Of a DNA stretch of 64,000 nucleotides, positions 1 to 12,621 are shown piece by piece. The notes below the pieces were generated by a model. It was not told the DNA's origin and did no database searches. It saw nothing but the letters and a program-made list of their open reading frames with translations. The stretch comes from Clostridia bacterium (GTDB lineage: Bacteria; Bacillota; Clostridia; Lachnospirales; Lachnospiraceae), in NCBI GenBank assembly GCA_910574255.1, contig CAJTAK010000007.1, forward strand, positions 1 to 64,000. Direction: 5' to 3'. Both the position numbers and the translations under genes were made by a program. The stretch's first letter is position 1, and each line of letters opens with the position of its first letter.

Positions 1-79
<79 letters not shown>

Positions 80-8782: not shown

Positions 8783-9793
8783 TTAGAACTTCCCGGCCTT
8801 CGCCGCTTCCTCGATGGAAACAGCCACAGCCACAGTCATACCAACCATGGGGTTATTGCCTGCGCCAATAAGACCCATCATCTCTACGTGAGCCGGTACG
8901 GAAGAGGAACCTGCAAACTGAGCGTCAGAGTGCATACGTCCCAGCGTATCGGTCATACCATAGGAAGCCGGTCCTGCTGCCATGTTGTCCGGATGAAGAG
9001 TACGTCCCGTACCACCGCCGGATGCAACGGAGAAGTATTTCTTTCCTGCTTCCAGTCTCTCCTTTTTGTAGGTACCTGCTACCGGATGCTGGAAACGTGT
9101 AGGATTGGTGGAGTTGCCGGTGATGGATACGTCTACGTTCTCCTTCCACATGATAGCAACGCCTTCGGGAACGCTGTTAGCGCCATAGCAATTAACCTTT
9201 GCACGAAGTCCCTCTGAGTAAGCTTTTCTGAACACTTCCTTTACCTCATTGGTGTAAGGATCGTACTCGGTCTCTACATATGTAAATCCATTGATTCTTG
9301 CGATAATCTGAGCAGCGTCCTTTCCAAGACCGTTCAGGATAACACGCAACGGTTTCTGACGAACCTTGTTGGCCTTCTCAGCGATACCGATAGCGCCCTC
9401 TGCGGCCGCAAAGGATTCATGACCTGCCAGGAATGCGAAGCACTCGGTCTCCTCCTCCAGAAGCATCTTGCCAAGGTTTCCATGTCCCAAGCCTACCTTA
9501 CGGGTATCTGCTACGGAGCCGGGGATACAGAAGGACTGAAGTCCCTCACCGATTGCTGCTGCTGCGTCTGCGGCCTTGCGGCAGCCCTTTTTGATTGCGA
9601 TCGCAGCGCCTACGGTGTAGGCCCAGCATGCGTTCTCAAAACAGATAGGCTGAATGCCCTTAATCTGATTGTATACGTCAAGGCCCGCATCCTTTGTAAT
9701 CTTCTCTGCCTCTTCCAGGGAAGCGATGCCGTAGCTGCCTAATACCTCATTGATTTTATCAATTCGTCTTTCATATGATTCAAATAATGCCAT
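8783..9793 (-). CDS. GGGtGRT family protein
   Basis: 336 residues belonging to the GGGtGRT family, named after the motif seen here as SGGGTGRTLHPDNM (259-270). The function is unknown. The protein is soluble, with no signal peptide, and has Gly/Ala-rich segments and several cysteines (51, 56, 71, 89, 118, 202). Other conserved-looking stretches are GSVADTRKVGLGHGNLG (92-108) and AGHESFAAAEGAIGIAEKA (123-141). It starts 18 bases after the NifU-like gene ends, with AGGAGG upstream, so the two are co-transcribed and probably work together on an iron-sulfur related task (inference). Confidence 0.88.
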   Translation of the reverse strand: MALFESYERRIDKINEVLGSYGIASLEEAEKITKDAGLDVYNQIKGIQPICFENACWAYTVGAAIAIKKGCRKAADAAAAIGEGLQSFCIPGSVADTRKVGLGHGNLGKMLLEEETECFAFLAGHESFAAAEGAIGIAEKANKVRQKPLRVILNGLGKDAAQIIARINGFTYVETEYDPYTNEVKEVFRKAYSEGLRAKVNCYGANSVPEGVAIMWKENVDVSITGNSTNPTRFQHPVAGTYKKERLEAGKKYFSVASGGGTGRTLHPDNMAAGPASYGMTDTLGRMHSDAQFAGSSSVPAHVEMMGLIGAGNNPMVGMTVAVAVSIEEAAKAGKF

Positions 9794-9811
9794 CTTTGTC
9801 TACCTCCTCGC

Positions 9812-10504
9812 TTATTCCTGTCTCGGGTCGATGATCTTCACTGCGTCATCTACGCGTCCATACTGTCCCTGTGCCTTCTCCCAGGCTGTGTTGGCATCGT
9901 CGCCCTTCTTGATGAAATCGGTCATCTTGCCAAGATTTACAAACTTGTAGCCAATGATCTGATCCTCTGCGTCCAGAGCGATTCCGGTTACATAGCCCTC
10001 TGCCATCTCCAGGTAACGAGGTCCCTTTTTCAGAGTTCCATACATGGTTCCCACCTGGCTTCTAAGACCCTTTCCAAGGTCCTCAAGACCAGCTCCGATA
10101 GGAAGTCCGTCCTCAGAAAATGCGGACTGTGTTCTTCCGTATACGATCTGCAGGAACAGCTCTCTCATAGCTGTATTGATTGCATCACAGACAAGGTCAG
10201 TGTTCAGTGCCTCAAGGAGAGTTCTTCCAGGAAGAATCTCAGATGCCATGGCTGCGGAATGGGTCATTCCGGAACATCCCAGAGTCTCTACCAGCGCTTC
10301 CTGAATGATGCCCTCTTTTACGTTCAGGGTCAGCTTGCAGGCTCCCTGCTGAGGTGCACACCAGCCTACACCATGTGTCAAGCCGGAAATATCTTTGATC
10401 TCTTTTGCCTGTACCCACTTTGCTTCTTCCGGAATCGGAGCAGCGCCATGATTTACGCCCTGTGCTACCGGACACATCTTCTCAACTTCGTGTGAATAAA
10501 TCAT
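9812..10504 (-). CDS. NifU/IscU-like iron-sulfur scaffold protein
   Basis: 230 residues with an IscU/NifU N-terminal-type fold. The cysteines sit in the expected contexts: VGWCAPQQGACKLTL (Cys49, Cys56), ETLGCSGMTHSAAMA (Cys77) and DLVCDAI (Cys106), with a further Cys11. The last ~100 residues are an extension not found in short IscU proteins. It is first gene of a two-gene unit with the GGGtGRT gene. No cysteine desulfurase is nearby, so it is probably not the housekeeping scaffold. AAAGGAG lies seven bases before the ATG. Confidence 0.85.
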   Translation of the reverse strand: MIYSHEVEKMCPVAQGVNHGAAPIPEEAKWVQAKEIKDISGLTHGVGWCAPQQGACKLTLNVKEGIIQEALVETLGCSGMTHSAAMASEILPGRTLLEALNTDLVCDAINTAMRELFLQIVYGRTQSAFSEDGLPIGAGLEDLGKGLRSQVGTMYGTLKKGPRYLEMAEGYVTGIALDAEDQIIGYKFVNLGKMTDFIKKGDDANTAWEKAQGQYGRVDDAVKIIDPRQE

Positions 10505-10843: not shown

Positions 10844-12244
10844 TTATATGAGCCTTCGGCCCATGAGGACGCCCATCATGGAAGCCATCATCAGGCCCCT
10901 TGTCCAGCCGCTGGAATCGCCCAGGCAATAGAGGCCCTTTACATTCGTTGTAAAGTCCGGCGTCATCTGGATTCGGTTGCTGTAGAACTTAAGCTCCGGC
11001 GAATAAAGGAGCGTCTCATTGGCTGCAAAGCCGGGAACTACGTGATCTACGGACTGGATAAAGTTTATGATGTTTATCATGGCACGGTAAGGCATCGCTG
11101 CCGTTATGTCGCCTGCTACCGCATCCGGCAGGGAGGGACGCACGTTAGACTGAGCCAGCTCTTTTTGCCAGGTTCTCTTTCCGCCCAGAATGTCCCCGTA
11201 GCGCTGTACCAGAATCTTGCCGTCGCCCAGCATGTTTGTAAGCTCTCCCACTTTCTTTGCATAGGCAATGGGCTGATTGAAAGGATGGGTAAAATTGTGG
11301 GAGCAGAGGATGGCAAGGTTGGTGTTGCTGGATTTCAAATCCTTGTAGGAATGGCCGTTTACTACTGCCAGATCGTTGTCGTAGTTTTCCTGGCTCACAA
11401 AGCCTCCCGGGTTTTGGCAGAAGGTGCGGACCTTGTTTTTAAAGGGCAGGGGGTAGCCGATGAGCTTGGATTCGTAGAGTATGTTATTGACATCCTCCAT
11501 GATTTCATTGCGCACCTCTACACGGACGCCGATGTCTACGGTGCCCGGCTCATGGGCAATTTTGTGCTGCTCACAGAGCTTTTCCAGCCAGTCCGCACCC
11601 TTGCGGCCGGTGGCAACTACTACATGCTCTGCGTGAATGGTTTCTTCCTCTGCACGGGTTCCCGCCTTTTCGATAACGACGCCCCTGCAGGTGTCCTGCT
11701 CTACGATCAGGTCTCTGCACTGATAGCCAAATATGATTTCTACGCCGTGGTTTATTAAATACTGTTCAATTTCGTAGTAGATTTCCTGGGCCTTTTCGGT
11801 TCCCAGATGACGGATGGGACAGTCTACCAGCTTTAAGCCTGCCTGGATAGCCCGCTTGCGCACATCCTTGACGCCCTGTTCGTCGCTGACGCCCTCTACT
11901 TTTGTGTCTGCGCCGAATTCCAGATAGATTTTATCTGTGTAGTTTATCATTTCCTGGGCAAAATCCTCTCCGATGAGCCTCGGCAGATCGCCGCCTACCT
12001 CATAGCTTAGGGAGAGCTTTCCGTCGGAAAATGCACCGGCTCCGGAAAATCCGGTGGTGATGTTGCAGTAAGGCTTGCAGTTTACGCACTCCTTTGTCTT
12101 GGATTTGGGGCAGGTCCGCTTTTCCACCGGTTTGCCCTTCTCCACAAGAATTATTTTCTTTTTGCTTCCCTGCTTCAGCATCTCAAGTGCCGTGAAAATT
12201 CCGGCCGGCCCTGCTCCAATGATACAAATGTCTGTGTTCCTCAT
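10844..12244 (-). CDS. FAD-dependent dehydrogenase, COG2509 type, with four-Cys cluster
   Basis: 466 residues. The Rossmann FAD motif IIGAGPAGIFTALEM is at residues 8-22. A GFSGAGAFSDGKLSLS block (65-80) and a C-terminal FAD-binding GLYCLGDSSGWTRGLMMASM follow, as in uncharacterised COG2509 dehydrogenases. Cys45, Cys53, Cys56 and Cys60 (C-x7-C-x2-C-x3-C) precede the SGAGAFSDGK block and could bind an Fe-S cluster. The paralogue at 56250-57872 lacks them. GGAGG six bases before the ATG at 12244 fixes the start, although the frame is open to 12316. The upstream leader carries a purine-type aptamer and a terminator. Substrate unknown. Confidence 0.88.
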   Translation of the reverse strand: MRNTDICIIGAGPAGIFTALEMLKQGSKKKIILVEKGKPVEKRTCPKSKTKECVNCKPYCNITTGFSGAGAFSDGKLSLSYEVGGDLPRLIGEDFAQEMINYTDKIYLEFGADTKVEGVSDEQGVKDVRKRAIQAGLKLVDCPIRHLGTEKAQEIYYEIEQYLINHGVEIIFGYQCRDLIVEQDTCRGVVIEKAGTRAEEETIHAEHVVVATGRKGADWLEKLCEQHKIAHEPGTVDIGVRVEVRNEIMEDVNNILYESKLIGYPLPFKNKVRTFCQNPGGFVSQENYDNDLAVVNGHSYKDLKSSNTNLAILCSHNFTHPFNQPIAYAKKVGELTNMLGDGKILVQRYGDILGGKRTWQKELAQSNVRPSLPDAVAGDITAAMPYRAMINIINFIQSVDHVVPGFAANETLLYSPELKFYSNRIQMTPDFTTNVKGLYCLGDSSGWTRGLMMASMMGVLMGRRLI

Positions 12245-12474: not shown

Positions 12475-12539
12475 AAAAAAATACCGCAATGATGATACAG
12501 CCTCTCCTTGGGGGAGACCTATAGTCAACTATTACGGTA
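12475..12539 (-). terminator. Riboswitch-controlled terminator
   Basis: The nine bases ATTGCGGTA (12482-12490, minus strand) stand directly before seven T residues (12475-12481). They can pair with TACCGTAAT (12531-12539) inside the P3 helix of the upstream aptamer, with one G-U. A small hairpin TCTCC/GGAGA (about 12503-12517) lies in between. Pairing would need the aptamer to open, so ligand binding would be expected to prevent termination and switch the FAD gene on. This logic is inferred. Confidence 0.6.
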
Positions 12540-12581
12540 GTTGGTAGAAACATTCAACCTATTATGAATTTATATAAGTCC
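12515..12581 (-). promoter_or_regulatory. Purine-riboswitch-like aptamer (guanine type, compact)
   Basis: The minus strand shows the purine aptamer parts in order: P1 (GGACTTATA with TATAGGTCT, nine pairs), J1/2 TAA-type junction, P2 ATTCA/TGAAT, L2 with GG, J2/3 GTTTCTACC (exact consensus), P3 AACTA/TAGTT, L3 CCGTAA (CC able to pair with GG of L2) and J3/1 GACTAT. The base equivalent to C74 of the xpt aptamer is C, which predicts guanine-type rather than adenine recognition. P2/L2 is three bases and P3/L3 one base shorter than in the xpt aptamer. Its position ahead of a flavoprotein is unusual. Confidence 0.8.
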
Positions 12582-12592
12582 AAGTCACTATC

Positions 12593-12621
12593 AGTGTACA
12601 AAAAATTCCTGTTTTTGTCAA
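12593..12621 (-). promoter_or_regulatory. Promoter of riboswitch-FAD unit
   Basis: Perfect TTGACA (12616-12621), 17 bases, TACACT (12593-12598) on the minus strand. Transcription would begin near 12586, a few bases before P1 of the aptamer, so the aptamer heads this transcript. Confidence 0.8.

Follow-up and report, generated by a model that had tools for sequence, protein, structure and literature searches.

The xpt riboswitch of B. subtilis is an OFF switch, and the pbuE-type adenine riboswitch is an ON switch whose terminator shares the 3' half of the aptamer, with the result that bound ligand blocks termination. According to PMC9295807, guanine-I riboswitches normally reduce the expression of genes for synthesis, salvage or uptake, and PMC11477304 reports the four guanine riboswitches of C. 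difficile as OFF switches. ON logic has been predicted for Paenibacillus guanine-II, xanthine-II and 2'-dG-III (PMC9295807). Our search of the open-access PMC literature found no link for Clostridia between a guanine riboswitch and either the flavoprotein family studied here or guanine deaminase.

Our analysis of a 64,000-nucleotide stretch of a Lachnospiraceae genome (hereafter the window) makes it highly probable that a compact-loop riboswitch of guanine-I type acts there as a transcriptional ON switch of the gene for an uncharacterised FAD protein of 466 amino acids (10844..12244, minus strand; PF07992, PF00890, PF21688). The element shares with the guanine-I class (RF00167; B. subtilis xpt type) the three-way junction, J2/3, the GG/CC loop letters and the U22/U51/C74 pocket, and differs from it in having shorter loops, in being predicted ON, not OFF, and in having a flavoprotein as its target. 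It follows the same terminator logic as the pbuE-type adenine ON switch, but carries C74, not U74, and its outer terminator arm pairs with L3/P3'. With guanine-II and xanthine-II, as set out in PMC9295807, it has the predicted ON logic in common, and many of its Clostridiaceae relatives also have an extended J3/1, whereas the window element itself has no insertion in J2/3 or J3/1 and a normal pocket.

A purine riboswitch at this site had been proposed in an earlier note, and a search of the window with the Rfam purine model RF00167 returned a significant minus-strand match at 12502-12597. It scores 50.9 bits, where the gathering score is 37, with E = 1.1e-5 in the window search and 2.1e-7 in the whole-genome search. 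No second RF00167 match was found in the 5.04 Mb source genome, even at E<=10. The guanine-type aptamer itself (12515..12581, minus strand) is defined by this match, by an aptamer-enforced fold of the leader and by the pocket positions over 99 rows. In the enforced fold, P1 (12573-12581/12515-12523) has nine pairs, as had been claimed, P2 (12565-12569/12552-12556, with L2 at 12557-12564) has five and P3 (12538-12543/12526-12531, with L3 at 12532-12537) has six, while J2/3 spans 12544-12551 and J3/1 consists of 12524-12525 (A73, C74), all on the minus strand. The J2/3 GTTTCTAC(C), the L3 letters CCGTAA and the A-C of J3/1 are present just as the note gave them. It had also described P2/L2 as three bases and P3/L3 as one base shorter than in xpt; relative to the Rfam consensus the first figure holds, but P3/L3 is likewise three positions shorter. 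GG in L2 and CC in L3 predict an L2-L3 contact, and G24 and C47 do not vary among 31 aligned family aptamers, in which C46 is kept in at least 90% and G25 in less than 90%. The window leader is more stable than its dinucleotide shuffles (z -2.84; 2 of 200 shuffles equally good).

The window element has the pocket letters U22, U51 and C74, and by the Rfam alignment as well as by the fold with the aptamer enforced, neither its J2/3 nor its J3/1 carries an insertion. Across 33 flavoprotein-linked rows (18 family leaders and 15 orthologues, a few near-identical pairs included), U22, U47, U49, C50, U51, A52 and U75 are unchanged, C74 is kept in 32, the exception being L047, and A73 differs in four. 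A single nucleotide separates P3' from C74 in 27/30 flavoprotein, 28/29 guanine deaminase and 17/18 transport/salvage leaders. Because the contact positions are unchanged and the P3'-C74 spacing is the normal one, the letters of the pocket make guanine the likely ligand in the window. A different purine as ligand, for example 2'-deoxyguanosine, hypoxanthine or xanthine, is unlikely: known variants of the fold do sense 2'-dG, xanthine and others (PMC9295807), the target gene is unusual and J3/1 is extended in many Clostridiaceae versions, yet the window keeps U22, U51 and C74, the contact positions given in PMC9295807, its J2/3 and J3/1 are of normal length, and the same subtype stands before guanine deaminase-like genes. 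The earlier idea that the compact loops could alter ligand choice is not borne out, since the pocket positions are kept and the guanine deaminase-like leaders have compact loops too; we therefore rejected the view that such loops signal a new ligand.

The promoter TTGACA-17-TACACT named in the earlier note was found at 12621-12593 (12593..12621, minus strand), and TTGACA-like boxes stand at roughly matching positions in several, not all, orthologue leaders; transcription probably starts near 12586. On the far side of the aptamer, ATTGCGGTA, the outer 3' arm of the terminator (12482-12490), and a U-tract of seven T (12475..12481) together occupy 12475-12490 on the minus strand, and the arm pairs with L3/P3' (TACCGTAAT, nine pairs), which agrees with the pairing to P3 that had been proposed. 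The minimum free energy fold of the leader is the terminator hairpin (12482..12539, minus strand; -29.2 kcal/mol), whose 5' arm consists of L3, P3', J3/1 and P1' of the aptamer; the best fold that retains the aptamer reaches -22.2 kcal/mol, and the two folds are mutually exclusive. A simple terminator scan of the window, limited to hairpins with an uninterrupted stem and a loop of 3-8 bases, returned nothing, and it missed the hairpin at 12482-12539 because that hairpin does not have such a loop and stem. With the two folds incompatible and no stand-alone terminator in the scan, bound ligand is expected to promote read-through. In the mechanism that we propose, RNA polymerase would start near 12586 and transcribe the aptamer before the rest of the leader; once guanine binds, L3, P3', J3/1 and P1' would be kept in the three-way junction and transcription would read through, and with no guanine these same segments would pair with the sequence before the U-tract (12482-12539) and transcription would stop. 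We infer both the identity of the ligand, guanine, and the ON direction in the cell.

The opposite logic would be that of B. subtilis xpt, an OFF switch in which guanine favours termination and the gene is repressed. The usual lowering of expression by guanine-I riboswitches (PMC9295807 and, for C. difficile, PMC11477304) speaks for it, as do the BMP leaders of the same family, which sort as stand-alone terminators. For the window it is nevertheless very unlikely and was rejected, because the scan gave no stand-alone terminator; moreover, the hairpin that precedes the U-tract is built from the aptamer's 3' half, and its arm shows co-variation with P3/L3. This co-variation was measured in a permutation test that set the bases before the first U-tract against the P3-5'/L3 of the same or of other leaders, with one leader per distinct P3/L3 and with 12 of 94 leaders dropped because no U-tract lay within reach (3 flavoprotein, 5 guanine deaminase and 1 each of BMP, NCS2, UraA and other). 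Among flavoprotein leaders (n=20) the own arm scored -12.1 and permuted arms -9.4 (z -5.3; 0/5000 permutations as good), and guanine deaminase leaders (n=13) gave z -4.1 (0/5000), while BMP/xpt/NCS2/UraA leaders (n=16) had no co-variation (z -0.3; 1813/5000). The signal of the arm against P3'-J3/1-P1' was weaker (flavoprotein z -2.7, 18/5000; guanine deaminase z -2.6, 26/5000; transport/salvage z -1.5, 325/5000). Matched changes can be seen in single leaders, with CCAACTGCCG accompanied by CGGCAGTTGG in L038 and CCAGCTGCCG by CGGCAGCTGG in L042.

Leaders were also sorted automatically by their best U-tract, with the duplex of lowest energy accepted even when weak, which leaves single assignments uncertain. 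In this sorting, the terminator arm is part of the aptamer in 14 of the 18 family flavoprotein leaders, with 3 stand-alone and 1 (G223) lacking a U-tract, and in 9 of 12 further orthologue leaders, with 3 stand-alone; these 12 come from 15 orthologues, L034, L039 and L060 having been excluded from leader comparisons as near-duplicates. Aptamer-arm terminators likewise make up 20 of 29 guanine deaminase leaders (7 stand-alone, 2 without a U-tract), 4/5 XdhA leaders (1/5 stand-alone) and 3/3 MATE leaders. NCS2 leaders (8) are divided into 1 aptamer-arm, 6 stand-alone and 1 without a U-tract, BMP leaders are stand-alone in 7/7 cases, and xpt leaders are aptamer-arm in 2/3 (weakly) and stand-alone in 1/3, though xpt is usually an OFF gene.

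The pairing of this riboswitch with the flavoprotein recurs in the same genome family, where 82 purine riboswitches are present in 65 of 299 genomes, the source genome counted among them. Their first sizeable downstream frames are guanine deaminase-like (29), flavoprotein (18), NCS2 permease (8), BMP lipoprotein (7), XdhA-like (5), MATE (3), xpt (3), uracil/xanthine permease (2) and single others (5), with none readable in 2; the frames were classed by all-against-all BLAST, the flavoproteins were recognised by BLAST against the window protein, and the names of classes other than guanine deaminase and flavoprotein were assigned by eye from the sequences. The name of the 29-member class rests on three scanned members, whose best match is TIGR02967 with 340.8-373.8 bits, all below the cut-off of 375.4; SsnA was rejected as its identity because the best NCBIfam match of the three is guanine deaminase. 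The leaders of this class (29/82 riboswitches) mostly have ON-type terminators. The 18 riboswitched flavoproteins fall into three divergent subclades, which are 76-100% (5), about 50% (4) and 35-39% (9) identical to the window protein, and the flavoprotein family occurs in 177/299 genomes, nearly always as a single copy. By a rough estimate that assumes about 3000 genes per genome, chance would yield well under one such pairing, far below the 18 found. When purine-gene queries were matched to the surroundings of the flavoprotein, xpt (L127) and BMP (L051, L158 with its copy L060, and L159) were found, and all of these matches fall at riboswitched loci. Among the best 30 class-wide riboswitch loci of a longer list, none is followed by this flavoprotein within the fetched stretch; the core anchor of this control is misplaced in at least L170, L174, L175, L186, L188 and L192, and its pairing statistics are void.

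A covariance model built from the 31 family aptamers was then applied to 80 orthologue loci from a separate genome collection. Conservation of the aptamer upstream of orthologues, on which the earlier note had placed weight, is partial: the aptamer is present at 15 of the 80 loci but was not found at the other 65, including L032 and L035, whose proteins are 95% and 91% identical to that of the window. On 13 of the 15 positive loci the Rfam model was run as well, and 12 pass its threshold while L055 fails. Two of these aptamers (L055:4831-4936 and L058:4827-4917) have an additional hairpin within P2/L2, and in three (L051, L056, L060) L3 is only about four bases. On the tree, 17 changes of the riboswitch label are needed, at least 11 of them forced by well supported branches; two divergent subclades consist of chosen riboswitched rows only, and gain rates there are not readable. 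Recurrence in several subclades and the co-variation of the arm with P3/L3 lend support to the note's central claim that a guanine-type element, probably an ON switch, controls a FAD protein that is uncharacterised.

A further set of flavoprotein-linked aptamers lies in a family of 206 genomes, which we took as Clostridiaceae because the Sarcina ventriculi copy (G863) is among its members. The flavoprotein is present in 132 of these genomes, and among the 130 of 135 listed matches that were examined, 41 have an aptamer upstream on the same strand (23/30 best loci and 18/100 further upstream regions); the L215 match, which sits behind the flavoprotein gene, is not counted. All 41 belong to a single orthologue group, 64-100% identical to the S. 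ventriculi protein, in which they account for 41 of 51 members, and the 79 more distant Clostridiaceae flavoprotein genes have no aptamer (one has only 83 bases upstream). The purine aptamer of S. ventriculi itself (L047:4825-4900 and its copy L200) has a J3/1 read as AUU and no C74.

By automatic fold, 31 of the 41 Clostridiaceae leaders have 2-6 nt between P3' and C74, and 23 have at least 3 nt before C74, and additional residues in J2/3 are frequent; where the J3/1 counts are longest, P3 has only 3-5 pairs, and 7 of the other 10 rows were parsed doubtfully. Leaders in which an extended J3/1 goes with weak P3 bases include L204, L206, L211, L214 and L224. The Rfam model matches 12/15 scanned Clostridiaceae loci with 51-84 bits, 7 of these matches being 1-2 bases longer than the model and 5 equal or shorter; L205 and L208 appear in its alignment with a mismatch at the base of P3, not an insertion. 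Many of the Clostridiaceae leaders lead into a ribosome-binding site and have no U-tract. The leaders with extended J3/1 are a possible variant riboswitch class. Insertions in J3/1 and J2/3 are described for xanthine-II/guanine-II variants of Paenibacillus and a few other Firmicutes (PMC9295807), and on this likeness the group may be guanine-II-like, or it may sense something else.

The flavoprotein gene starts with ATG at 12244, preceded by a GGAGG ribosome-binding site, and its product may belong to COG2509, the label it had been given in the earlier reading of the sequence. Its AlphaFold model has a mean pLDDT of 84, and the closest solved structure by both sequence and fold is VP0956 (PDB 3NLC; E 6.3e-34, TM 0.74 by query length), an uncharacterised protein apart from which the fold search gave no functional hint. 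Near the N-terminus, C45, C53, C56 and C60 are invariant in 27/27 aligned sequences and are absent from 3NLC in its alignment to the window protein; as a guess from the sequence, the four cysteines may hold an iron-sulphur cluster. Downstream of the flavoprotein gene, after a gap of about 340 bases, lie genes for a NifU-like and a GGGtGRT (PF14057) protein (8783..10504, minus strand), the latter following the former and unassigned in function; the two also occur together at some other loci. The start of a 16S rRNA gene lies at the edge of the window (1-79, minus strand). The three genes in a row on one strand invite the reading that the switch serves mainly the NifU-like/GGGtGRT pair, with the flavoprotein as a passenger. 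Homologues of the pair are found in only 7 and 8 of 98 fetched stretches (some of them short), 3 of these riboswitched, and together with the gap this makes such a target most improbable; the pair was rejected as the main target on these counts and is probably outside the conserved unit. Because its homologues are rare near the flavoprotein, the recurring unit is the riboswitch with the flavoprotein.

The recurrence of this unit in other Clostridia points to an unrecognised enzyme step in purine handling, and by analogy with guanine deaminase, which stands under a switch of this type too, the flavoprotein would help to break down or detoxify guanine or purines. For the source genome the argument from a shared pathway is indirect, since no match to guanine deaminase was found in it. 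Anaerobes that degrade uric acid by the reductive pathway employ different flavoproteins, YgfK or UacX (PMC12507026). It is tempting to speculate, though we regard this as doubtful, that purine-sensing RNAs have repeatedly been recruited to the flavoprotein across Clostridia, that it performs a redox reaction by which purines are broken down or detoxified anaerobically, and that the Clostridiaceae aptamer is a distinct extended-J3/1 class with a non-guanine ligand, perhaps the substrate or product of the enzyme.

With predicted induction by guanine, alongside guanine deaminase-like and XdhA-like enzymes, a widespread family of uncharacterised flavoproteins gains a metabolic setting that can be tested. 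ON logic is predicted for many guanine-I aptamers of the family to which the source genome belongs, and our analysis reveals a group of Clostridiaceae aptamers with altered J3/1 whose ligand is directly testable.
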